A stretch of DNA of 64,000 bases from Cyrtodaria siliqua (lineage: Eukaryota; Mollusca; Bivalvia; Adapedonta; Hiatellidae), in the NCBI GenBank assembly GCA_037043455.1, contig JAWPHD010011472.1, positions 19,597 through 83,596 on the forward strand, written 5' to 3'. The position numbers and the translations under genes are program-made. A model generated the notes under the pieces. The model was given only the letters and a program-made list of their open reading frames with translations, searched no databases and had not been told where the DNA came from. The stretch's first letter is position 1. Every line of letters begins with the position of its first letter. Shown piece after piece: positions 2,011 to 59,476 of the stretch.

Positions 2011-2127
2011 CCTCAAAATAGTGATTATACAGTACAGTATATTTTTTGTTTAAGTATTTGCCCTTCATATGTGACATTAACCTTTTTAGCTCAACTATTA
2101 GAAGAATAAGAGAGCTTATGTAATCAC

Positions 2128-2150
2128 CCCGACGTCGGCGTCGGCGTCCC
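2128..2150. repeat. Short GGCGTC simple repeat
   Basis: Three tandem GGCGTC-type hexamers immediately before the 190-bp array. They give a local GC-rich island in AT-rich DNA. Confidence 0.5.
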
Positions 2151-2815
2151 ACATCAAGGTTTGCGTGTAAGCTGTGTTTACAAGTCTATATCTCTTACAT
2201 TTCTTATCCTAGTACAACCAAATTTGTTCATGGGCTTCCTTATAGCATTATCTTAAGAGCTGCATAAGCAATTTTGGTTCCTGTAACCCATGGGCTCCAA
2301 TGGAACCCAAATTATGATAGCTCATAAAAATGTCCCATTTCACATCAAATTTTGCGTGTAACCTGTGTCTACAAGTCTATATCTCTAACAATTCTTACCC
2401 TAGCACAACCAGATTTGGCCATTAGCTTCCTTATAACATTATCGTAATGGCTGCTTAAGTAATTTTGGTTCCTGTAACCCCTGGGCTCCCATGGAACCCA
2501 AATTCTATGGAACCCAAATTCTGTTAGCCCATAAAATATGTCTGTTTCACATCAAATTTTGCGTGTAAGCTGTGTTTACAGGTCTATATCTCTTACATTT
2601 CTTGTCCTAGCTGAACTAAATTTTGGAATTGGTTTCCTTATAGTATGTTGTAAAGGGTTGGATAAGTAATTTTGTCTTCTCCAAATTCTGGTCTCCCATG
2701 GAACCCAAATTGTGATGGCCCATAAAATGTGCAATAAAGGCAGATCTAGGTTTGCATGTAAGGATGTATATATCTATAATTTTGATTTTGGGATTTGTTA
2801 TAGCATTATGCATCT
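2151..2815. repeat. Tandem repeat, about 190-210 bp, 3.5 copies
   Basis: Units begin near 2151, 2341 and 2552, each with CACATCAA..TTTGCGTGTAAGC, CTATATCTCT, TTCCTTATAG and a CCCATGGAACCCAAATT block. A decayed partial unit follows from about 2745. The middle unit carries a small internal duplication of TATGGAACCCAAATTCT. Confidence 0.8.
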
Positions 2816-2819
2816 TATT

Positions 2820-3780
2820 ACTTCACCCATATTGGGGCATGGGCTCTCTCCTCCCGCCCCCCACCCTCCACCCCCACATCTTTTTTTTTTTTACATATTT
2901 CTCTGTTGTTTTAGTCAATTCTGACACATATATGTTGCCCCCTCCCTGCCCACCCCCCCACCCCCGCCTCTCACCCCAAACACTTGAAACGCTTTTTTTT
3001 TTTTACATATTTCTTTGTTGTTTTAATCAATTCTTACACATATATGTTGCCTTCTCCCCCCCAACCCACTCCCGCCTCTCACCCCCGCTCCCCCCACCCA
3101 AACCCCCACTTGAATGTTTTTATTTTTTTTTACATATTTCTGTGTTGCTTTTGTCAATTCTTACACATATATGTTGCCCCCTCCCCAACCCCCAACAACC
3201 CCCGCCCGCCCCCGCTCCACCCCACCCCCACTTGAAACTCTATTTTTTTTTTTTTTACATATTTCTGTGTTGCTTTTGTCAATTCTTAAACATCCCCCCC
3301 CCCCCACCACACATCGAAACTAGAATATTTATTTTTTTACATATTTCTGTGTTTTTTGGTAAATTCTTAAACCATAGCTTCTTACCCCTATGTTGCCCCT
3401 TCCCCACACCCCCTGCTTCTGTCCCCGCCCCCTCCCCCCACCCCACACACACTCAAAGCTTTTAGTCAATTCTTACACATATCTGTGTTGACCCCCCCCC
3501 CCCCCCCCCCACCCACATGCTCGAAACGAATATTTTTATTTAATGTTTATTGTTTTTTTACATATATCTGTGTAGTTTTGGTAATTTCTTACACATATAT
3601 GTGTGTTGTTTATTAATTTCTTACACATAGCTTCTTACACATACACACTCGAAACTGTTTTTTTTTCTCGTTTTTTTTGTTTACATATTTCTGTGTTGTT
3701 TTTGTCAATTCTTACACAGCTATCTTGCTATCGTGTTTCAGTTTCATATTCAATATGCATACGCATTAAAGTAGGTCACG
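2820..3780. repeat. Pyrimidine-strand tandem array, about 95-125 bp unit
   Basis: About eight degenerate units: T8-14, TACATATTTCTGTGTTG, TCAATTCTTACACATAT, then a C-rich block (CCCCxCCCC) and ACTTGAAAC. The + strand is nearly all pyrimidine in the C-rich parts, so the - strand can form G-quadruplexes and the + strand i-motifs. The 237-codon frame at 2752-3465 is a low-complexity by-product (Pro/Phe runs) and is not called. Confidence 0.85.
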
Positions 3781-3789
3781 TGATCATAT

Positions 3790-4725
3790 GATTTAATTAT
3801 TGTTAATGAAATAGTTCTGTCTGGAAAACTTGCCAACTACACTAGTTTTTGTTATATAAACATTAATATTAATTCATAGGATGCTTTAAGGTTCTTAGAA
3901 ATTCTTGTTGTGTAATCGAAGTATGTACACTTTATTTGAATTGTATGTACAAGCGCTAACGATATAATCACAATTTAAATTAATATTCATGATATAGCAA
4001 CAAAACCAACCGAGACTTCGGTTTTCCAGACCAAACATTTTCCTCAATATCAAATTCAAAACTAAATGTGCAGCTTATTTAATGCATGACTGTGCACATT
4101 TCATATTAAACTGAAGCACATTTAGAGGGTTTTCTCTTGAATTTGTATATTGGCACCAATTACTCGCTCAGATTGTCTCTAGTTCCTTCAAAACATGCAC
4201 TTCTTTTCTTTTTGTTTAATATTATTATTCCATCATCATTTCCATTGATATAGTTGACTGACTTGTGATAGTGATCTTTGACTGACAATAAATAATGTAG
4301 TTGACAACATAAAACCTTAGTGCATATCTCTATCTGCTTTGAAGTTAATTCTCAAACAATAAAAAATAGAAAGACGAGTAACCTATCATATAATGTCTGA
4401 CTTCAACAGACATGCTTATTAAATTACTTCTTACTAGGCGTGAATTTCACACTGTGTTATAATACATTGAGGATCTTACACGAGTGCTCGTTTCATATGA
4501 AAAATATGCAACAAATTGGTAATTTTTATATTTTACAAGCATAATTGAGTAAAATACGGTAATAAGATTATTCAATAAGTTTCATCTTATTACGAAATGA
4601 ATACGAGTGTAAGATTATTTTTAACGTTACTGTCAAAAACCTTAAACTAGAAGGGAGTTCCATGTAACACTTATCGCCTGCCATGTGCTTATTTCAGCAA
4701 GTAAAATTTTAACTAAAAACATTTG
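3790..4725. other. No recognisable feature
   Basis: AT-rich unique-looking DNA without an open frame of note, splice-flanked exon or repeat that I can recognise. Confidence 0.4.
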
Positions 4726-4729
4726 AAGA

Positions 4730-5400
4730 CAGTAGGTGCAATCCTTCATGAATTATGGAGCAGATTTTTTTTTAATTGATAAAACTTACGAAAAGGGGCA
4801 TACCTCTGCATTGGATAATTGATATTAAAGTAGAAACTGTATAAAGTTTCATGACCATAGGTCAATGTTTTGTCAAGTTATTAGCTAAGTTAGGTTGCAG
4901 GTTAAACTTTTATAAAAAGGGCTATAACTCTGCCAAAAATAAAAGTCAACAGCATTGAATAATTGATAAAGAAGAATTGTATAAAGTTTTATGACCATAG
5001 GTCAATATTTTGTCATGTTATGAGCCAGGTTATTTTACAGGTTAAAGATTTATGAAAAGGGGCATAACTCTAGTCAAAATGTCAGGGTTATTGGACATGT
5101 GTAATGACATTTCTCTAAGTAAGATGAAGATGTGTGTGAAGTTAAGTTTCATGAACGTAGACCAAATACTTTTCAAGTTATGGCCAGTTATAAGCTTACA
5201 AGGTTAGGTTGCAGGTTCAAGTTTGATGAAAATGGGGAATAACTCTGCAAATATGGAAGTCAGAGCTTTTGGACATGATTAATGACATTCCTTGAGTTAA
5301 GATGAAGAATTAGATTTGTGTGAAGTTTTATAGACAAAGGTCAAATACTTTTCAAATCATGGCCAAGGTTAGGTTGCAGGCTAAAGTGTGACGGACCTCA
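4730..5400 (+). repeat. Tandem repeat with GGGGCATAACTCTG motif
   Basis: The anchor AAAAGGGGCATAACTCT (variants) occurs at about 4789, 4914, 5053 and 5227, so the period is 125-174 bp. Units also share AGTTTCATGACCATAGGTCA and TTAGGTTGCAGGTTAAA. The array ends in GTGACGGACCTCACGGCGGAC. I recall similar repeats from bivalve genomes. Confidence 0.75.
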
Positions 5401-5605
5401 CGGCGGACACAGTGATCCCTAAGTGTTTGCCATGCTATGCAGGTGACACAAAATAATTAGGATGGCATAAAACTGACCCAACGTCATACACATTCGCGCC
5501 AAAATGTCACGGGTTGACATAATGTCATGTGATGAAAAATGTTGGGTATCGAAGAGTGTCAGGCACTTTATGCAACCTTTTTAAACAATCAAAAACTACT
5601 TTATG

Positions 5606-5909
5606 TTAGGCAAAAAAAAAAAAAATAGGTGTGTTTATGCTCTTAAAAAATAGGGTAGGTCGGTAGGCATTTTTTTCTTTTCTTTTTCTTTTTTGGAGCA
5701 AGATATTGTGAGATTCTACATGTATTTATCTCATAAACCCCATAAAAGTTGATGACACAACTGAAAGTTTCTCTGCGATGTCAGTTTACCTCGATATATT
5801 GTGATAAATCATTGTTCAGAACAAATTTTTTTATATTTTTTTTTCATAAAAAGTTTTAAAAATAGGATCGGTCGGGCCACCGGAAACACAGGTATTTTTT
5901 TTGGCCTTA
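5606..5909. mobile_element. MITE with TTA target duplication, family A copy 1
   Basis: About 304 bp. The left end (TTAGGC, A-run, TAGGTGTGTTT) is the imperfect reverse complement of the right end (AAACACAGGTA, T-run, GGCCTTA). Both ends sit on TTA, consistent with a 3-bp target duplication as in PIF/Harbinger-type elements (inference). A related element is at 12407-12731. Confidence 0.65.
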
Positions 5910-5974
5910 ATGAGTTATTAAGAGTCGTTATTGATAAATAATAAGTTAATGACTTGGATCATGAATAACTTTTA

Positions 5975-6135
5975 ATTGAACTGAATTGTTAGAGGCGCCC
6001 CAGAGAGAGGAGTAGGATATATAGGAATCTGGGAACCGTGCCCTACTGTTATTATTGACAAAATTCTTATATGGTTATTTAACATGCCCTCACCCTGGGG
6101 TGGCTCTAAATGATCTTGTTGTTCCACAATAATAG
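5975..6135. repeat. Diverged pair of the 105-bp repeat
   Basis: GCGCCCCAGAGAGAGGAG (minus-type) and CTGGGGTGGCTCTAAAT (plus-type) match the two orientations of the array at 9.3-10.9 kb. An isolated inverted pair. Confidence 0.5.
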
Positions 6136-6303
6136 TTATGTTTACAAAAATTAGGTGTATTTAGCTGTATACAAATATATATGGATACATAGAGGGCATT
6201 TTGTAGCCAATAATTTATCTCCTTATTTGTCATGACCTATTCTGCCTTGTTTTCTACAGTGCTGGCTGTGTGGTTGTCCACGCTTTGCTTGAATTTCACC
6301 CAG

Positions 6304-7230
6304 AACTGGGCCACTGGGCAAGAACACTAGGCGTGGACCCTTCCCTTTTTACCCGCATCATCCCATTGACATAGGTAAATGATCTCTGTAAATATCTGAA
6401 AATTAGCAAAATAGCTAAATGAGAAGAGAGACATATTTATGGCTATAACAACAGTAATGAGTGTCAATAGCATTCAATGATCAACTGCCTAAATTTCAAA
6501 GACAAACTGTTTAGAGAGAAATTAGAAAAATGCTATCAGTTACATGAAATGTTTTAATAGTGTGAAAACAACTTTTAGATCAAGGTCTTTCACACTGACC
6601 TACTATTTGCAATAATGGGCAATACATTTGAATGAATATAGAGTTATGGTTCTTGTGCTTCCTCTTTTTGTCCTCTATCAATGAGTGAATTTTCATTACA
6701 ATCCCATTAGTAGTTTTTGAGTTATGTTCCGGACAAAAAATGTAACTATAAAATTACACAGGGCAATAACTCTAATTTGAATGAAGATAGCGTTATGGTT
6801 CTTGTGCTCTAAATGTCCTCTCATTGCATTGATATACGGACGGACAAAGCAGCAACTAAAAAGTGGTCCCTAATTACTTTTTTTTTTAAATACAGGATCA
6901 TCTCTTCTTAAAATTATACCAACAGATATTGACATAGTATCTTCTGTTGAGCAGGTGTTAAATTTTATCGGTTTTGTGATATATACATTCTGTTTTAAAG
7001 CTGTGAAAGCAATTTGTGATTTACATAGAATTTAATTTAATTTTGATCAACCACAGATCTGTGGAACATGTCCATATAATTTAAGGAAAATTCACCAAGA
7101 GGTGAAAAATAACCATTTGTATGATTGTAATTACTATTCTATCAGAAATGAGAACTTCGACTATTTTGAGGGTGTGTTAGTCAGAAAACTTGGCAAATCT
7201 GTTGGTAAAGATCTGACAAGACATATATAA
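6304..7230 (+). CDS. Candidate 3' end of a protein gene, three exons
   Basis: Proposed exons are 6304-6374, 6896-6954 and 7057-7230, ending in TAA at 7228-7230. Acceptors are TTTCACCCAG, a long T-run ending AAATACAG, and TTGATCAACCACAG. Donors are CATAG|GTAAAT and GAGCAG|GTGTTA. Phases fit: exon 1 ends in phase 1, exon 2 opens with the missing two bases and ends in phase 0, and exon 3 opens in phase 0. The joined frame has about 100 codons without a stop. It includes LLKIIPTDIDIVSSVEQ and then ICGTCPYNLRKIHQE, with a CxxC pair and a further His and Cys that hint at, but do not prove, a small zinc site. An alternative acceptor at 6259 opens a longer first exon, but this frame then meets TGA. 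The family is not recognised. No start or upstream exon was found. It could be a pseudogene or chance. Confidence 0.4.
6630..6860. repeat. Two-copy repeat, about 146 bp
   Basis: GTTATGGTTCTTGTGCT occurs at about 6646 and again at 6792, each followed by a CCTCT..TGTCCTCT block. GGGCAATAACTCT between them relates it to the style of the 4730-5400 array. It lies in the proposed intron before 6896. Confidence 0.55.
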
Positions 7231-7265
7231 TTATTTGTCATTAATTTTATTACTATTAAACTAAC

Positions 7266-7382
7266 CAGTTTAGCTGCAAGAAGTAGGTCCTTTCCCTGAT
7301 CCCCTCGAAATCTTCCAAAGAGAAACTGGGCCAAACGTGGTAGGTCGAAACAACCATAATCGTCACCCTTTTCTGACATGAT
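7266..7382 (-). CDS. Candidate internal exon (minus)
   Basis: On the minus strand CTAATTTCCATACAG precedes an exon of exactly 39 codons that ends at AAACTG|GTTAGT, phase 0 at both ends. It encodes IMSEKGDDYGCFDLPR then LAQFLFGRFRGDQGKDLLL, a soluble-looking mix of charged and hydrophobic residues. Reading on past the donor reaches a stop at 7161. It can join in phase with the candidate exon at 8759-8854. No family recognised. The exon lies 35 bases from the stop of the plus-strand candidate, so the two would be convergent. Confidence 0.35.
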
Positions 7383-7389
7383 CTGTATG

Positions 7390-8755
7390 GAAATTAGACA
7401 TGTATTAAACAGTTGCTTTTAGGACTTTAAAATGTTCTTTTGCCAAAATGTAATAAAATCAGAAAAATAACATGATACTATAATTATACTTGGATGCACT
7501 TTATTTCTTTTTCTTTTTTCATAATTTATGTATACAACATTAGAACAACTCATTTATTTGTCCCATTACTTATACTACCTTACAGCTTGTGAAATTAGTT
7601 ATTTACACATTGATATAATACACCTTAAAGAATGATCTATTTCTTAAATTATATAATAACCTGATTTTAATAAAATTAATAACATAAACTGTTATACATG
7701 TAATTGTGCTCAAACAATCCATCGTATTTATAAATAATATTATATTGTTGTTATTGAACTCTTACAGGAATAAGTTTTGTAAAAATAACAAATTCTTCAT
7801 GATTTTAACCGAGACCTATTTAAAGAAACTTTCAAATTTACCTGATTTTACCTAAACAGTTTTTTTTATAAATTCGAAGTTAATTTGATAGATGTTATTC
7901 CCTACAAAATCTACTCACCCAACATCAATATTTTATTACATTTCTGTTGGTGAATTACCTTGACATCATCAGTAAAGAAATCACTGGTGTTTTCAAAATA
8001 TTGTTAATTCAATTGTATGTGTAAATTTCACTAAATCATAATTAACTCCCATAAATGGCGCCTTTGCAGAGACCAGACAAAAAACCCACACCCTCAGAGT
8101 TTAATCTGCACCATTAATCGACACACAAGTGAAATTACATATATATATACATTATGTAAACTCGTTTATCCAGTGAAATATAAATATCTTGCGACATGTG
8201 TGCAAATGTTATCAACCAATGTCTTGTGTGCTCCATGTATACCTTTGTTTCTATCAAGTTTGTTTGCATAGTGTTTTACATAATTTTGAGCACATGTTAG
8301 GCCATATATGACGGTCAATTATTTTTGTGGTAGAGGCAGACCACCCCGTTGTTGATATATATAAAACACATCTACAGCCGACTAAAATCATAAATCAAAG
8401 TGCATTACAAAACAGGTCAACATTCTACACAGTGAATAAATCTCGGTCTAACAGTATAAAACGAATTTCTAACTAAAAGAAAATTCTGTGGGATTTTTGC
8501 GGTTATGTATAACGGCAATGTTTATAGATCTGCATATTTTTAAATTTTATATGAAAAAAACACACCTCAAGTGGCACTTCGCACACTTCAATTTATCTTT
8601 GCAAAAAGCTCATGACTTTGACATGATTTAATTATGGAAACCAGATTTTGTTACTTTCAGTACTTTTTTTTATTATCACTATTAATATCTATATATATAT
8701 TATCATGATTATATACGTACATATTTTGATCATCAGCACATGATTCCCGTTACAG
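7390..8755. other. No recognisable feature
   Basis: AT-rich DNA without tandem structure or open frames. It would be intron if the two minus-strand exons on either side belong together. Confidence 0.4.
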
Positions 8756-11689: not shown

Positions 11690-12405
11690 ATAAATACACC
11701 TGTTATGCACTACTTTGACAATAAAAACTTCCATTACTGTTGACAACAATCCAAGAAGTTCCAAATTTTGCACAGAACGCACAGTCATCCGGGCCATTTT
11801 AAGCCAGTTTACTGTCACCCAAACATAAACATCTCAAACGGTGTCACAGTACATTTTCCAAGGAGGTGAATACTGTCTACCTATGGGTTTTTCCCAGATA
11901 GACATTCAGTGCAGAAATTGAATTGAATTGAGTTTTAAGACGCACCAACACATGAAAGGTATATGCCAGTGCAGAAATATTGTAATTAACCCAAAAGTTA
12001 CTTCAGTAAATGTCCTAATGAAACGACTTTAATTTAAAAAAAAAACAAAAAAAGCTACCATATTGTTTCTAATTAGCGCTCCCTCTATAATTAGCGCCCA
12101 CCCTAACTTTAAAAAAAAAAAATCTTACCTTGAGGTGTAAAAGTGGTTAATATCCAAGAAAAGTGGTTAAAATCCAAGAAACTGTATACACACACTTATG
12201 AATTTAATTCTATATTTCCGTAACATAAATTTTTTTAGCATTATATAAGGAAATTAAAATGTGTATTGGCTTACGAAGAGTTTTTTAATAGGTGCCCCCA
12301 CCCCCACTTTCAGAAAATGTCACGCAGGCCTCCGGGGGTGCTAATTAAAAACAATATGGTATGTGGTGACGTCAACACCATTTGTACATTTACTGCTGCC
12401 TGTAT
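11690..12405. other. No recognisable gene; A-runs and short repeats
   Basis: Contains poly-A runs near 12037 and 12111 and a short AAGTGGTTAAxATCCAAGAA doublet near 12150. No exon-like sequence found. Confidence 0.4.
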
Positions 12406-21845: not shown

Positions 21846-21997
21846 GACTCGGCCATCAAAATATTATAAACTTGTAATATGAAATGTGTATATAAAACTC
21901 GCACTCTAAGAGTGTTATAATATGGTATAAAAATCAAATAGCATGTAATAAAAAGATAAATTTACAGTTACAAATTACAGTTCTCTGTTTTATTTTT

Positions 21998-22318
21998 TTC
22001 ACGTGAAATTCACGTTTAAAATAAATTCATGTTACTTAATGGTTTACATTTTCACATGAATTTCATGTGAATTTCACGTTGTTTCTTCACATGAATTTCA
22101 CGTTGAAAATAATTTAACGTTAGTTAACGTTAGTGAATTGTTACCTTTTCATGTGAATTTCACGTGAACTTAACGTGAATTTAACGTGAATTTCACGTTA
22201 TTTTTTTTCACATGAATTTCACGTTGAAAATAATTTAACGTTAGTTAACGTTAGTGAATTGTTACCTTTTCATGTGAATTTCACGTTATTTTTTTTTCAC
22301 GTGAATTTCACGTTAAGG
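21998..22318. repeat. AACGTGAA/TTCACGTT palindromic array, copy 2
   Basis: Same vocabulary as 520-842: AACGTGAATTTCACGTT palindromes plus TTAACGTTAGTTAACGTTAG. A 121-bp segment is directly duplicated (from 22088 and 22209). Confidence 0.8.
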
Positions 22319-22329
22319 AATTTTGGTAT

Positions 22330-23350
22330 TATATGACGAGACTTTAATAAACTATAAAACCTGTGTATATCCACAATAAAAGCTGTTAAAACGTACAAGG
22401 TCACATCCTATATCCCATTTCAATGGCGTATATTTACGTACGTAGGACTTCAAAGGTATAGTTTATACAAATATCAAAAGATTAGGCAAACATTGTTATT
22501 TTATCCTACGCATGTATACACGGTAGATACTTCATTGTATTGTTAGGATGAGAATAGACCAGGAAGTCTTCCTTAAACTGAATTGAAAGAGGTTGTGAAT
22601 GAAATTGACCAACTATGATTGAAGTGAGTGTGTCGTTAAAAAGAAAATGTAATTTGAAGGTACCAGGATGTTTTTTACAAAGATGTAGAGCTCAGGCTAA
22701 CATTCATTTTGTTTCGTAAGATATCGTATATACGAGTAATTAGTATCGTTATACCTGCATACTTTAAATGTCTAAGTTCTCACGATTATTTATTTTGGAT
22801 TTTACAATGCTTCATCTAATCATCAGATATGGTATAGATCTAACAAATATCTCTTAATAACACCTGAATTATATAATAAAGCATTAACTCAAGTCAGTGT
22901 TTATATAATTAAACACGGTTAAAAACAATGAGTACATTTTAAAGGGCATTTCTCTATCAATAAGGTTGACTCACACACATTTTCTGATGAGAGTAATTGA
23001 TCGATACTTATATAGATGCCTGTGAATTCGTCTTATACATTCATACACAATCAGAGTCTCATTTAGCCATTATCCTAACACGGAAGAGGCTATGTATATT
23101 ACCAAATGAGGAGTATTTATTTCTGTGTTTTGGATTCCTAAATTACATACAAATCCGTAAAAGCCCTCTTTATTTCGAATTCTAGTGCCTGCACCACCAC
23201 AAACATCTCCAAGCTTTTAACTTCCTGTCTTTTTGCCGTTAAAGATCCCGTTGAACAATATTGTACTAATTATGAAAACTCTGGGGTTAATTTGTTTGGG
23301 TATATTACAATAAAACCGAGTTTGCTACTTTTATCTCTTGTTTGTGTTTA
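22330..23350. other. No recognisable feature
   Basis: AT-rich, no exon-like or repeat structure that I can support. Confidence 0.35.
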
Positions 23351-31569: not shown

Positions 31570-34435
31570 ACATTTTCCAGACATTTTCTATAATGGAGGT
31601 CAAAGATCAAGGTCAAGGTCACAATGCCCTTATTTTGGTACGCGACACACCGCTATCCCAAGATGTATTCACATACCACGTTTGATGTCTCTAAGTGTTA
31701 CAGTATTGAAAATACGGTCTGGACAAGCATTTCCTATGATAGAGGTCACAGGTCAAGGTCACAATGACCTTATTTTGGTACACGACACACTGATATCCCA
31801 AGTTGTATTCACATACCAAGTTTGGTATCTCTAAGTGTTATAATAATAAAAATACGGTCCGGACAAGCATTTTATATGGCAGAGGTCACAGGTCAAGGTC
31901 ACAATGACCTTATTTTGGTATGCGACCTATCGCTATCCCAAGATGTATTAACATACCAAGTTTGGTATCTCTAAGTGTTATAGTATTAAAAATACGGTCT
32001 GGACAAGCATTTTCTATGACAGAGGTCACAGGTCAAGGTCAAGGACACATTGACATTATTTTGGTACGCGACACACCGCTATCCCAAGATGTATTTACAT
32101 ATCAAGTTTGGTATCTCTAAGTGTTACAGTATTAAAAATACCGTCAGGACAAGCATTTTATATGCATTTTACAGAGGTCACAGGTCAAGGTCACAATGAT
32201 TTTACTTTGGTACGCGACACACCGCTGTCCCAATATGTATTCACATACCAAGATTGGTATCTCTAAGTGTTATACAATTGAAAAAACGGCCAGGACAATC
32301 ATTTTATATGACAGAGGTCACAAGACAAGGTCACATTGATCTTATTTTGGTACGCGATACACGACTTTCCCAAGATGTATTCACATACCAAGTTTGATAT
32401 CTCTAAGTGTTATAGTATTAAAAATACGGTCCGGATAAGAATTTTCTATGACAGAGGTCACATGTCAAGGTCACAATGACCTTATTTTGGTACGCGACAC
32501 ATTGCTATCCCAAGATATATTCACACATTAAGTTTGGTATCTCTAAGTGTTATAGTATTAAAAATGCGGTCTGGACAAACATTTTTCTATGACAGAGGTC
32601 ACATGTCAAGGTCAAGGTCACAGTGACCTTATTTTGGTACGTCACACACCATTATCCCAAGATGTATCCACATCCCAAGTTTTGTATCTATAAGTGTTAT
32701 AGTATTGAAAATACGGTCTGGACAAGCATTTTCTATGACAGTGGTCACATGTCAAGGTCATAGTGACCGTGTTTTGGTACGCGACACACCGCTATCCCAA
32801 GATGTATCCACATACCAAGTTTGGTATCTCTAAGTGTTATAGTATTGAAAATACGATCCGGATAAGATTCTTCTATGACAGAGGTCACAGATCAAGGTCA
32901 CAATGACCTTATTTTGGTACACGACAAACCGATATCCCAAGTTGTTTTCACATACCAAGTTTGATATCTCTAAGTATAACAGTATTGAAATACGGTCCGG
33001 ACAAGCATTTTCAATGACAGAGGTCACAGGTCAAGGTCACAATGACCTTATTTTGGTACGCGACCTATCGCTATCCCAAGATGTATCAACATACAAAGTT
33101 TGATATCTCTAAGTGTAATAGTATGAAAAATACGGTCCGGAAAAGCATTTTCTATGACAGAGGTCACAGGTTAAGGTCAAGGTCACAGTGACTTATTTTG
33201 ATAAGCGACACAAAGCTATCCCAAGATGTATTCACATACCAAGTTTGGTATCTCTAAGTGTTATGGTATTGAAAATACGGTCAGGACAAGCATTTTCTAT
33301 GCATTTTCTATGACAGAGGTCACAAGTCAAGGTCACAATGATTTTATTTTGGTACGCGACACATCGCTGTCCCAAGATGTATTCACATACCAAGATTGGT
33401 ATCTCTAAGTGTTATAGTATTGAAAAAACGGCCAGGACAATCATTTTATATGACAGAGGTCACACGACAAGGTCAAGGTCACATTCCCAAGATGTATTCA
33501 CATATCAAGTTTGGTATCTCTAAGTGTTATAGTATTAAAAATACGGTCCGGATAAGAATTTTCTATGACAGAGGTCACATGTCAAGGTCACAATGACCTT
33601 ATTTTGATACGCGACACATTGCTATCCCAAGATGTATTCACATATTAAGTTTAGTATCTCTAAGTGTTAAAGTATTATAAATACGGTCCGGACAAGCATT
33701 TTCTATGACAGAGGTCACAGGTCAAGGTCACAGTAACTTATTTTGGTACGAGACACACTACTATCCCAAGATGTATCCACATACCAAGTTTGGTATCTCT
33801 AAGTGTTATAGTATTGAAAATACGGTCCGGGCAAGCATCTTCTATGACAGAGGTCACAGGTCAAGGTCACAATGACTTTTTTTTGGTACGCGACATACCG
33901 CTATCCCAAGATGTATTCACATACCAAGTTTGGTATCTCTAAGTATTATAGTATTGAAAATACGGCCCGGACAAACATTTACTATGCATTTTCTATAACA
34001 GAAGTCACATGTCAAGGTCAAGGTCACAAAGACCTTATTTTGGTAGGCGACACACCGCTATCCCAAGATGTATTCACATACCAAGTTTGGTATCTCTAAG
34101 TGTTATAGTAGTGAAAAACGGTCCGGACAAGTATTTTCTATGACAGAGGTCACAGGTCAAGGTCAAGGTCACAATGACCTTATTTTGGTACGCGACACAC
34201 CGCTATCTCAAGATGTATTCAAATACCAAGTTTGATATCTCTAAGTGTAATAGTATTGAAAATACGGTCCGGACAAGCATTTTCTATGACAGAGGTCACA
34301 GGTCAAGGTCAAGGTCACAGTGACCTTATTGTTGTATGCGACACCCACTCTTCCAAGATGTATCCACATACCAAGTTTGGTATCTCAAAGTCTTATAGTA
34401 TTGAAAATATGGCACGGACAAGTATTTCGGAAGGA
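31570..34435 (+). repeat. Tandem array, about 142 bp, 20 copies, dense in AGGTCA half-sites
   Basis: Each unit reads: TATGACAGAGGTCACAGGTC, AAGGTCACAATGACCTT, ATTTTGGTACGCGACACACC, GCTATCCCAAGATGTATTCA, CATACCAAGTTTGGTATCTC, TAAGTGTTATAGTATTGAAA, ATACGGTCCGGACAAGCATT. Copies differ by point changes and small indels. About half carry an extra AAGGTC. The inverted AGGTCA-nnn-TGACCT site is intact at 31756, 31896, 32468, 32615, 32895, 33034, 33585, 34166 and 34312. The array ends in a (GGAC)/(GGAA) run. Open frames across it are by-products. Confidence 0.95.
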
Positions 34436-34611: not shown

Positions 34612-34618
34612 GACGTAT
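34612..34618. repeat. Target-site duplication, left (GACGTAT)
   Basis: The same seven bases recur at 35958-35964, immediately outside the other end of the foldback element. Confidence 0.8.
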
Positions 34619-35957
34619 ATGGCAAGCCAATTGTCCAATAATTACGTGAACCCAGGTTCACGGTCGAAAAACTAGGATTAACGATCGATAAACTAGGTTT
34701 TTCGAACGTAAAACCAGGTTTATCGAATACTAACTTATATTTTCGAGCGAAAACATAGGATAACGGGCGTAAACCATAGTTTACGCTCGTGAACCCATGT
34801 TTACGTTCGATAAACTAGGTTTCTCGATTGAACTAAGAATTTCGGTCGTTATCCTAAGTTCACGAGCGTGAAGCTATGTTTACGGGCGTGAACCTGGGTT
34901 CACGAGAGTGAACCATAGTTTACGAACGTGAACCTATGTTTACGACCGTGAACTTGGGTTTACGACCGTGAACATGGGTTTACGACCGTGAACATAGGTT
35001 CACGCTCGTGAACATAGGATAACGACCGAAAATCAAAGATTTGTTCGAGAAACCTAGTTTATCGAACGTAAACCTAGGTTCACGTTCGTAAACTATGGTT
35101 CACGCTCGTAAATCCAAGTTCACGGTCGTAAAGCTAGGTTCACGTTCGTAAACTATGGTTCACGGTCGTTAACATAGGTTCACGTCCGTAAACTATGGTT
35201 CACGCTCGTAAACCTAGGTTCACGCTCGTAAACTATAGTTCACGTTCGTAAACTATGGTTCACAGTCGTGATTGTCTATGCTCGTAAATCACAGATACCG
35301 GTCCGAAAGCATAGTTACAAGTCGATAAACCCGGTTTTACGAATGTGAACCTATGTTTACCAGCGTAAACCATAGTTTACGGGCGTTAACTATAGTTCAC
35401 GGTTGTAAACATAGGTTTACGTCCGTAAACTATGGTTCACGCTCGTAAACATAGGTTCACGTTCGTAAACTATGGTTCACGGTCGTAAACTATGGTTCAC
35501 GGTCGTAAACATAGGTTCACGGTCGTAAACATATGTTCACGGTCGTGAACCCATGTTCACGCCCGAAATTCATAGTTCTTTTGATAATCCTAGTATATCG
35601 ACCGTAAACCATGGTTTACGTTCGACAAACTAGGTTTCTCGATTGAACTATGAATTTCGGTCGTTATCCTATGTTTACGAGCGTGAACCGGGGTTCACGA
35701 GCATGAACCGGGTTCACGAGCGTGAACCATAGTTTACGAATGTAAACCTATGTTTACAACTGTGAACTTGGGTTTACGAGCGTAAACCTACGTTTACGAG
35801 CGTGAACTATGGTTTACGGACGTTATCCTATGTTTTCGCTCGAAAGTATAGGTTAACATGCTTTTACGTTCGAAAAACCTAGTTTATCGATCGTTAATCC
35901 TAGTTTTTCGACCGTAAACCTGGGTTCACGTAATTGTTGGACAATTGGCTTGCCATT
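34619..35957. mobile_element. Foldback element made of 20-bp palindromic units
   Basis: 95-bp terminal arms (34619-34713 and 35862-35956) are reverse complements with two mismatches. Between and within them is an almost uninterrupted 20-bp periodic array of GTT(C/T)ACG-NN-CGT(A/G)AAC-NNNN units, about 65 in all, each a palindrome around a variable dinucleotide. Variant units keep the symmetry with other arms (TTTTCG-AG-CGAAAA). A segment with AACTAGGTTTCTCGATTGAA and TTTCGGTCGTTATCCTA is repeated about 810 bp apart, and its reverse complement lies near 35010-35070. No coding sequence. The overall design recalls Drosophila FB elements. Confidence 0.9.
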
Positions 35958-35964
35958 GACGTAT
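35958..35964. repeat. Target-site duplication, right (GACGTAT)
   Basis: Exact match of 34612-34618. Confidence 0.8.
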
Positions 35965-44452: not shown

Positions 44453-45690
44453 ACAGAACAGAACATACTTGTATTGACTTGTGCGTTAAGTACATTATCA
44501 TAACATATATACAACAATTACAAAATACATATTTAAATCACGTTTAACATACAAAGTATATGATCAAGGATGAACTATATGCGTTCACATATGCGTTATA
44601 TATATTCTATGTCACATTTGAGATATGAAGCCAATATAAAAAGAATCATTTTGATTCAGTTTGCAATAATTCGATGAATTTAAACATACTTGGTATATTA
44701 CGATAATATTGTTATATGTATTTCCTCCTTATATCGGAGTAACATGGACATTTTACAATGAAATGAAACTCATCTTTAATGTCTTGAGTATTACAATATT
44801 GACAAAAAACGTTCATTTTTTTAATCATACCATACCGACCTGCTTTAATTCTTATAGAATGTGACAATAACCTTATTCTACTTACTAAACTTCTTAAATC
44901 GCATGGCAATACATCTTAAGAAAATGATTTTTCACATTGTTATACAAATCTAAGACACCAGAATTTTGTTTATCAGTATACCACATTTGCAAAAAACAAT
45001 CGATTATTGTTCGTTTGAATACTAATGCAAATGACTTACAAACAACTGTATCAGGGTTATCCCAAACCCAATTGAAACCATATGCATACAGTAATGTTTT
45101 AACATTAGATAACCAGTTCTTTTTGCCATCATCGGCCATATTATAAACATGTTTCAATATAATGTTATCAGTATTTAACATCTTAAACCAATACTTAACA
45201 CGTTTAACATATCGTGAAATATACAAAGGATAACGTCCCAGTTCACCGTAAACAGCAGCTGTATAATTACTTACTTTAACATTTGATATTTTCTTACACA
45301 ATGTTAAGTGTATTCTTTCAATTTCTTGCTAAAGCCCCATATTTCAGATGCATATCCCAAGATTGAACCAACAAATGCATCAAAAAGTTCATGTCTAAAA
45401 GTAATTTAGGTTTAAGTTTATATTTACGACAATTTACTAATAAAACATTAAGGGCTTTCAACGCTTTACCAACTAATTGTTCTTGGTTAAGTGAAAAATT
45501 ATCAGTATAATTAAACACGGTACCCAAATAATTAAAATCATCAACTGCTTCTTATTTACTATTATTATAATAATTTGGTAATAGTCTACCTCTTTTCCTA
45601 AAGACCATAACTTTAGTTTTAAGCGTATTCACTTCATGACTCCATTTTTTACTATAACAATTTAACAAATCGAGGCTACTCTGTATTATT
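44453..45690 (-). mobile_element. CR1-like LINE, 5'-truncated (minus)
   Basis: The minus strand encodes, in order: KTKVMVFRKRGRLLPN (about 45600), FNYLGTVFNYTDNFSLNQEQ (about 45520), ILGYASEIWG (about 45340), CKKISNVKVSNYTAAVYGEL (about 45290), and the C-terminal IRIKAGRYGMI, FCQYCNTQDIKDEFHFIVKC (about 44770-44830). It ends in a UTR with TTCTGTTCTGTT at about 44453-44465. Only the C-terminal third of ORF2 is present, with at least two frameshifts. It sits antisense in the EGF-gene intron. Confidence 0.75.
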
Positions 45691-58534: not shown

Positions 58535-58645
58535 AGCGGCCGAGGTAGCGTAGCGGATAAGGCCTTGAGACGTAAGCTACAGACCTCTGCCCCGCATGAG
58601 TTGGCTCTCTGGTGGAGGCATGTATGATAGGGAGCTGTATCCTTC
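58535..58645 (+). repeat. tRNA-like SINE head preceding the minisatellite
   Basis: GCGGCCGAGGTAGCGTAGCG and GATAAGGCCTTGAGACG look like a Pol III A-box half. No intact B box follows. It runs straight into the first diverged 72-bp unit. Confidence 0.45.
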
Positions 58646-59476
58646 AACTCTCAAGCCTCTGACTCGCATGAGTTCTCTCTCTGGCTGAGGCATGTATGAT
58701 AGGAAGCGTTATCCTTCATCTCACAAGCCTCTGTCTCGCATGGGTTCGCTCTCTGGCTGAGGCATGTATGATAGGAAGCGTTATCCTTCATCTCACAAGC
58801 CTCTGTCTCGCATGAGTTCTCTCTCTGGCTGAGGCATGTATGATAGGAAGCGTTATCCTTCATCTCACAAGCCTCTGTCCCGCATGAGTTCTCTCTCTGG
58901 CTGAGGCATGTATGATAGTGAGCTGTATCCTTCATCTCACAAGCCTCTGTCCCGCATGAGTTCTCTCTCTGGCTGAGGCATGTATGATAGGGAGCTGTAT
59001 CCTTCATCTCACAAGCCTCTGTCCCGCATGTGTTCTCTCTCTGGCTGAGGCATGTATGATAGGGAGCTGTATCCTTCAACTCTCAAGCCTCTGACTCGCA
59101 TGAGTTCTCTCTCTGGCTGAGGCATGTATGATAGGAAGCGTTATCCTTCATCTCACAAGCCTCTGTCTCGCATGAGTTCTCTCTCTGGCTGAGGCATGTA
59201 TGATAGGAAGCGTTATCCTTCATCTCACAAGCCTCTGTCCCGCATGAGTTCTCTCTCTGGCTGAGGCATGTATGATAGTGAGCTGTATCCTTCATCTCAC
59301 AAGCCTCTGTCCCGCATGAGTTCTCTCTCTGGCTGAGGCATGTATGATAGGGAGCTGTATCCTTCATCTCACAAGCCTCTGTCCCGCATGAGTTCTCTCT
59401 CTGGCTGAGGCATGTATGATAGGAAGCGTTATCCTTCATCTCACAAGCCTCTGTCCCGCATGAGTTCTCTCTCTGC
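58610..59476. repeat. 72-bp minisatellite with higher-order copy, about 12 units
   Basis: The unit is CTCTG(T/A)CTCGCATGAGTTC, TCTCTCTGGCTGAGGCATGT, ATGATAGG(A/G)AGC(G/T)(T/G)TATCC, TTCATCTCACAAGC. Because 72 is a multiple of three and the unit is stop-free on the minus strand, it creates frames of 142 and 118 codons there (24-residue repeats with CLSQREN). I treat these as artefacts. A marked unit (CTCTCAAGCCTCTGACTCGC) recurs 432 bp apart, dividing the array into two similar blocks. Confidence 0.9.

Follow-up and report, generated by a model that had tools for sequence, protein, structure and literature searches.

A foldback-shaped transposon family with arrays of a 20-bp near-palindrome in the bivalve Cyrtodaria siliqua, and its resemblance to IS3EU elements

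What kind of sequence consists almost wholly of one short palindrome repeated every 20 bp, and is its symmetry itself maintained? The question is raised by positions 34,612 to 35,964 of a 64,000-nucleotide stretch of Cyrtodaria siliqua contig JAWPHD010011472.1, the whole of which we call the window. An earlier note, made from the letters alone, described a foldback element at this place and suggested that selection or a copying mechanism acts on the symmetry of its units. We find that the feature is one member of a mobile, foldback-shaped family with hundreds of copies in the genome. Judged from its sequence, it is probably a non-autonomous DNA transposon mobilised in trans by a transposase of the IS3EU/GingerRoot type (IS3/IS481-like DDE).

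The genome searched comprises 2.88 Gb in 26,948 contigs (loci are given below as L numbers and contigs as C numbers). The first 22 bases of the element occur exactly at 780 genome sites (398 + 382) and at none with the reversed control, which bears out the proposal of a mobile element with further copies. A query with the 149-bp arm yielded 1,211 candidates, 40 of them scored; among the 41 matches listed, 40 are at 97–100% identity and one at 94%. The unit pattern is found at 12,390 genome sites, compared with 31 in the control. With 22.1 exact units per copy, the mean of 53 delimited copies, this equates to ~560 copy equivalents, an approximate value given that good ends were the basis for choosing the 53. 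The fetched loci contain 1,283 exact units, 1,172 of them inside delimited elements, and in the window none occurs outside the copy described here. The longest open frame among the 53 copies has 91 codons. L022, L029/L030, L038, L040, L041 and L047 gave no end pair by the rule used and are excluded from the 53; removal of nine copies sharing flanks with a retained copy leaves 44 independent ones.

In the window copy the element spans 34618–35957 (1,340 bp). Its parts, together with one further site in the window, are as follows.

34612..34617, no strand: left target-site duplication GACGTA, 6 bp (flank comparison among copies)
34618..34713, forward strand: left terminal inverted repeat, beginning TATGGCAAGCCAATTGTCCAATAATTACGTGAACC and containing the first half-unit CGTGAAC (repeat finder, copies compared)
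34634..35869, no strand: 62 quasi-palindromic 20-bp units, consensus GTTYACG-NN-CGTRAAC, with polarity in blocks, overlapping the inverted ends (autocorrelation, unit placement)
35862..35957, reverse strand: right terminal inverted repeat, finishing GGCTTGCCATT, its final T differing from the A of most copies (repeat finder, copies compared)
35958..35963, no strand: right target-site duplication GACGTA, 6 bp (flank comparison among copies)
45127..45371, reverse strand: unoccupied paralogue, with a single GACGTT, of the insertion site in L036/L037/L064, outside the window copy (joined-flank search)

A repeat finder places the arms at 34613–34720 and 35855–35962, 94% complementary across 108 nt. 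The inverted ends measure ~96 bp, and they agree at 95 of 96 bases in the majority sequence of 25 copies (19 of the 44 lay outside 1,240–1,460 bp and were left out) and at 93 of 96 in the window copy, close to the near-perfect arms of ~95 bp first described. The termini TATGG/CCATA are present in 50 of the 53 delimited copies; the terminal base of the window copy is T, that of 51 of the other 52 is A. The segment had been given as 1,339 bp with an exact 7-bp duplication, GACGTAT. A duplication is indeed present; its length is 6 bp, since the seventh T is the first base of the element on the left and belongs to the flank on the right. The window copy has a GC content of 42% and 115 CpG, with an observed/expected CpG ratio of 1.93 against 0.82 for the whole window. 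No Rfam family was matched at gathering scores.

The duplication was compared over all the delimited copies. It is perfect in 41 of the 53, has one mismatch in eight, two in one and five in three. Among the 44 independent copies the matching flanks measure exactly 6 bp in 32, 3 bp in one and 4, 5, 7, 8, 9 or 10 bp in none. When flanks of different copies are cross-paired, 43 of 1,892 comparisons agree, a consequence of non-random targeting: CG occupies positions 3–4 in 25 of the 32 perfect duplications and ACGT positions 2–5 in 20, against 68 ACGT in 16,805 flanking bases. Insertion prefers an NACGTN target. The copies were found by their ends, and the sample is accordingly biased toward good ends.

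Filled and empty sites can also be compared. When the joined flanks of the 53 copies were matched to the fetched loci and the window, spanning matches were obtained for six, of which L036, L037, L064 and L063 were used; those of L027 (to its own end) and L031 (ragged) were set aside. The first three represent a single insertion that was copied together with the host repeat around it, and the insertion site is empty in the window paralogue listed above (87.5–88.4% identity). L063 is inserted in the array of another copy at CACGAC, and the same spot is unoccupied in L026, L018 and L013 (97%). The comparison proposed in the earlier note thus yields two unoccupied sites, with duplications of 6 bp in place of the 7 bp expected there; an empty site of the window copy itself was not found in the assembly, its joined flanks matching the filled site only, plus an unrelated repeat on the right.

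What could move such an element? IS3EU elements make 6-bp target-site duplications and have TA..TA ends, with TAYGG..CCRTA in fungal families and fungal inverted ends of more than 30 bp, as described in excerpts of PMC10045372 and PMC12730594. The 6-bp duplication, the TA..TA termini and inverted ends of more than 30 bp are all present in the family, whose ends read TATGGCAAGCC..GGCTTGCCATA; it is this match of the TATGG..CCATA ends and the duplication that suggests an IS3EU-like element.

The genome contains IS481-like transposase genes or remnants. Among the 68 matches listed for NCBIfam NF033577 (IS481-like) none exceeds the cut-off, and many lie in long frames that we take to be retrotransposon integrases. 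At the IS481-like locus L069 the C-terminal frame resembles the integrase core, with rve and rve_3 matches below curated cut-offs, and a second frame matches no Pfam family. One IS481-like fragment (C534:270476-270832) lies on the outer side of an exact end (C534:273488-273509), 2.7 kb from it, perhaps by chance or as a decayed partner. Six ends with an altered base 12 proved on reading to be ordinary copies, and 11 further ends diverge beyond base 16. Two copies were considered as autonomous partners and rejected. One, of 10.3 kb in C22 with GACGTA on both sides, contains a Gypsy-type long terminal repeat (LTR) retrotransposon nested in an ordinary copy (L029 150-10000 and L030 to 6630), with LTRs of ~1.6 kb and the integrase upstream of the reverse transcriptase in one frame, a gene order we take to be Gmr1-like; L012 has stretches 96–97% like this LTR inside its copy and another in its flank. 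The other, L040 in C51, holds a Polinton and a satellite.

L040 also bears on a different origin, in which the family would be a miniature derivative of Polinton/Maverick. The locus runs from the element end into PolB-like and integrase frames (2065-8001, Polinton/Maverick-like, with weak DNA_pol_B_2 and rve matches). However, Polinton ends are AG..CT-like, not TATGG, and the left end of this Polinton matches elsewhere from query position 66–119 onward with the palindromic array absent at 39 of 39 other places scored; the L040 Polinton is therefore a nested insertion. The 6-bp duplication fits the value for Polintons in the part of PMC10045372 cited, and a Polinton origin nevertheless seems to us very unlikely. 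The satellite of this locus (L040 550-2004) has ~980-bp monomers; most of its listed matches start at the same phase, and many of the arrays finish at the same partial monomer, as if moving as a unit.

A Mutator-like or P/Galileo-type foldback element would account for the overall shape, and duplications of the MuDR/IS256 type range from 4 to 10 bp (PMC10045372, in excerpt). In L022 (C8987) a frame matching PF20700 (E 6e-8) lies ~1.6 kb inward of an element end. The fixed 6-bp duplication, the NACGTN preference and the TATGG ends argue against this origin, as do the 7–8 bp at GTATTAC reported for Galileo and the 8–10 bp for Tetris in the passages cited (PMC4168063, PMC4079207). The neighbourhood of L022 is moreover part of a larger repeat: at least 13 contigs carry its inner stretch and far outer flank, identically ordered, at 94% or above. 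Three of these (C3138, C1114 and C1754) also have the same end, 2.2–3.6 kb downstream of the inner stretch and with 94–126 bp of the same outer flank, and on the other ten there is no array among the matches listed. Since the outer flank is common too, the L022 end fits a single insertion that has travelled with copies of a Mutator-like host repeat, and we regard a Mutator or P origin of the family as improbable. Two other interpretations of L022 fail: that the end lies within a Mutator-like gene, because the frames to its right match nothing Mutator-like, and that the locus is a shortened copy of a larger array-ended element, because the outer flank is shared with the same three contigs. The stretch L022 1062-3901 is itself a shortened copy of the larger Mutator-framed repeat, and the element insertion is carried on at least four of the at least 13 contigs.

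The array of the window copy has the 20-bp period ascribed to it, with an autocorrelation peak at lag 20 (0.59) followed by lags 40, 60 and 80. We placed 62 units, spaced by exactly 20 bp in 52 of 61 cases; GTTYACGNNCGTRAAC is matched in full 24 times. There are 37 dyad centres in which seven or more of nine arm positions pair, compared with a mean of 2.9 and a maximum of 7 in 200 first-order Markov sequences, and a second dyad centre sits in the spacer, 10 bp from the unit centre. DNA folding of 34900–35560 (661 nt) gives − 200.8 kcal/mol against − 86.4 ± 4.4 for 20 shuffles. The ~65 tandem palindromes of the earlier note are thus a real array of ~62 units, which are near-palindromes: many are polar, not symmetric, reading GTTTACG-NN-CGTGAAC or its reverse complement and grouped in blocks. 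Nor does the centre dinucleotide vary freely as was thought. Self-complementary centres are found in four of 62 units where 16.9 are expected by permutation, and in two of the 50 units that fit well in the majority sequence, a scarcity that carries no clean probability because the units are related by duplication. The element end holds a half-unit, ACGTGAACC / TTACGTGAACC, of the kind that builds the array.

The window contains other repeats. Two further palindrome-rich arrays, at 480–1140 and 22005–22320, are centred on ACGT (TTCACGTGAA, TTAACGTTAA); they have 19 ACGT and one CGNNCG per scanned stretch (400–1300 and 21900–22450) and are distinct from the 20-bp unit. A long tandem array of ~140 bp lies at 31610–34427, and one of 72 bp (12 copies, 94% matches) at 58584–59475.

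Does anything act on symmetry itself? The self-complementarity of the array is very strong, and in the window copy double departures from the motif to the same letter number 10 against 4.4 in permutations (reached by 88 of 5,000), both as selection or copying on symmetry would predict. However, the excess is just as great for double departures to different letters (8 against 4.2), indicating that some units are degenerate throughout, and symmetric centres are avoided. In 19 copies (six more diverged ones having been removed) 7,413 arm pairs were examined; 260 show one-sided changes and three show two-sided changes, all complementary, where slid partners would give 2.5. The distinct single changes number 183; a pair is broken by 133 of them and created by 30, and 20 have neither effect. 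With one-sided changes dominant and two-sided changes at the slid-partner expectation, nothing is seen restoring symmetry. Arm identity within units (0.719 against 0.697 permuted, reached by 123 of 2,000) does not exceed the value across the spacer (0.747) or that between adjacent units (0.744). The count of paired substitutions that had been proposed as a check therefore finds pairing between copies no more often than chance, and we give scarcely any credence to selection or copying on symmetry.

How then do the copies vary? The 25 near-full-length copies are on average 3.4% off the majority sequence, with L068 at 12%. Transitions are barely faster at CpG (1.9%) than elsewhere (1.7%), so that germ-line CpG methylation leaves no visible footprint. 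Of the 87 indels that reach 8 nt, 46 have lengths within one base of a multiple of 20 (~13 expected), and the differences common to several copies are mostly letters that other units already have at the same offset. A–G swaps at the R position are shared in 26 cases and private in 13, and other changes at this position are shared in 4 and private in 36. Units are therefore gained, lost and exchanged, and the variation points to inter-unit exchange or slippage before or during the spread of the family. Copies of 417, 515, 546 and 672 bp carry perfect duplications, and these may have shrunk after insertion. Four 672-bp copies with identical flanks (L032, L056, L057 and L058) are a short version duplicated along with its surroundings.

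Selection on the motif at transposition was considered and set aside. Rates between copies range from 0.3% at offset 5 (the first A after R) to 3.9–5% at the centre, R and spacer, and the ratios of private to shared changes, with stretches near gaps or with clustered differences left out, are 148:215 and 19:98 (p = 7e-7). The difference holds for ancestral A/T (p = 0.004), for ancestral G/C (p = 8e-5) and for changes shared by at least three copies (p = 2e-7); for isolated changes p = 0.34, and for isolated changes at A/T p = 1. Restricted to derived letters rare at their offset, the ratios become 68:31 and 8:3 (p = 1). Because this control removes inter-unit exchange, we do not claim selection on the motif.

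The array may nonetheless have a role, and we suggest that it could be an amplified transposase-binding site grown from one in the element end. Repeats in the ends of Galileo contain additional transposase-binding sites, according to the part of PMC4079207 cited. By analogy, the end half-unit (ACGTGAACC) would be a putative additional site of this kind, multiplied into a dyad array by slippage or unequal exchange of the self-complementary repeat. The array may be retained if extra binding sites help a gene-less element to compete for transposase, and its symmetry would stem from a dimer-type binding site and from descent, not from a symmetry-copying mechanism. A bolder form of the idea, with the array as a bank of dimer-type sites for an IS3EU-type transposase, the family as the first foldback-shaped IS3EU, and imperfect centres that would permit dyad binding without perfect cruciform extrusion, appears unlikely.

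The same transposon could instead carry the array as a functionless passenger satellite that arose by slippage or unequal exchange, an explanation that rivals solely the role proposed for the array. Self-complementary repeats are unstable and hence grow; changes are one-sided and indels come in unit steps; shared differences follow letters existing in the array, leaving no excess once these are removed; and the short copies with perfect duplications, though possibly shrunk after insertion, fit as well. Against it stand the unit itself, kept with the same conserved letters over ~60 repeats and across the copies compared, and the half-unit in the end, though both are compatible with a passenger. 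The satellite fits the variation equally well as the binding-site explanation, and we put its chances only a little short of even.

Mobilisation by an IS3EU-type transposase remains the interpretation we prefer, and the points that count against it may be taken together. No transposase-bearing copy was found among the loci read, which are a minority of the 780 exact ends, and IS3EU membership, drawn solely from the ends and the duplication, is for this reason provisional. Close IS481-like matches to L069 are few, 15 exceeding 130 bits (two of these being pieces of one place), with none placed between element ends. The 6-bp duplication is absent or poor in four of the 53 copies. Finally, with the motif-selection signal lost in the rare-letter control, the variation does not prove a function for the array.

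The family is of wider interest in several respects. Its hundreds of copies with variable unit number form a natural set for asking if repeated transposase sites aid the spread of a gene-less transposon. It illustrates that a perfect-looking palindromic array need not be maintained by selection for symmetry, and hundreds of long, strongly self-complementary repeats are relevant to the instability of large genomes.

Non-autonomous foldback elements with tandem repeats are already known, among them Tetris, Galileo and FB. The FB elements of Drosophila have inverted ends of short tandem repeats, fold back strongly and make 9-bp duplications, with direct repeats as their units. The earlier note had likened the window element to FB in design with other units, and the shape, long inverted ends of short tandem repeats, is indeed alike; the two differ in the duplication, 6 bp here, and in the palindromic units. 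Helitrons and Helentrons make no target duplication and have no long inverted ends; membership of that group is rejected, as the family has both. Bivalve Helentron/pearl elements, as excerpted from PMC7492417 and PMC8268682, share with it the character of dispersed mollusc elements carrying satellite-like arrays, and are of the rolling-circle type, unlike an element with inverted ends and a 6-bp duplication. Tetris of Drosophila virilis (PMC4079207, in the part cited) is likewise a non-autonomous foldback element with tandem repeats in its ends and no partner found, but its repeats are of 220 bp, its duplications of 8–10 bp, and a Mutator origin has been suggested. Galileo, of the P superfamily, has the foldback shape and long inverted ends in common (PMC4168063, PMC3688188), and the extra transposase-binding repeats in its ends (PMC4079207) can be likened to the array here; it differs in its 7–8 bp duplications at GTATTAC and in the existence of transposase-encoding copies (PMC4168063), and the tandem repeats in one copy of the D. 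willistoni Galileo are of ~140 bp compared with 20 bp here (PMC4168063, PMC3688188), all as given in excerpts of these papers.

The closest correspondence is to IS3EU/GingerRoot, with which the family shares the 6-bp duplications, the TA..TA ends, TAYGG..CCRTA and inverted ends of more than 30 bp. It differs in the array of 20-bp palindromes, which the passages cited of PMC10045372 and PMC12730594 do not describe, and in that a transposase-bearing copy was not found among the loci read here. The excerpts of the open-access literature consulted do not describe 20-bp palindromic arrays for any IS3EU-like element, and a family catalogued but undescribed is possible. In Crassostrea gigas the satellites CgiSat35 and CgiSat47 are annotated DNA/IS3EU (PMC8268682, in excerpt), so that bivalve tandem repeats tied to IS3EU are not wholly unprecedented. 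If the IS3EU assignment is true, the foldback design would extend to a superfamily for which those same excerpts give no such case.
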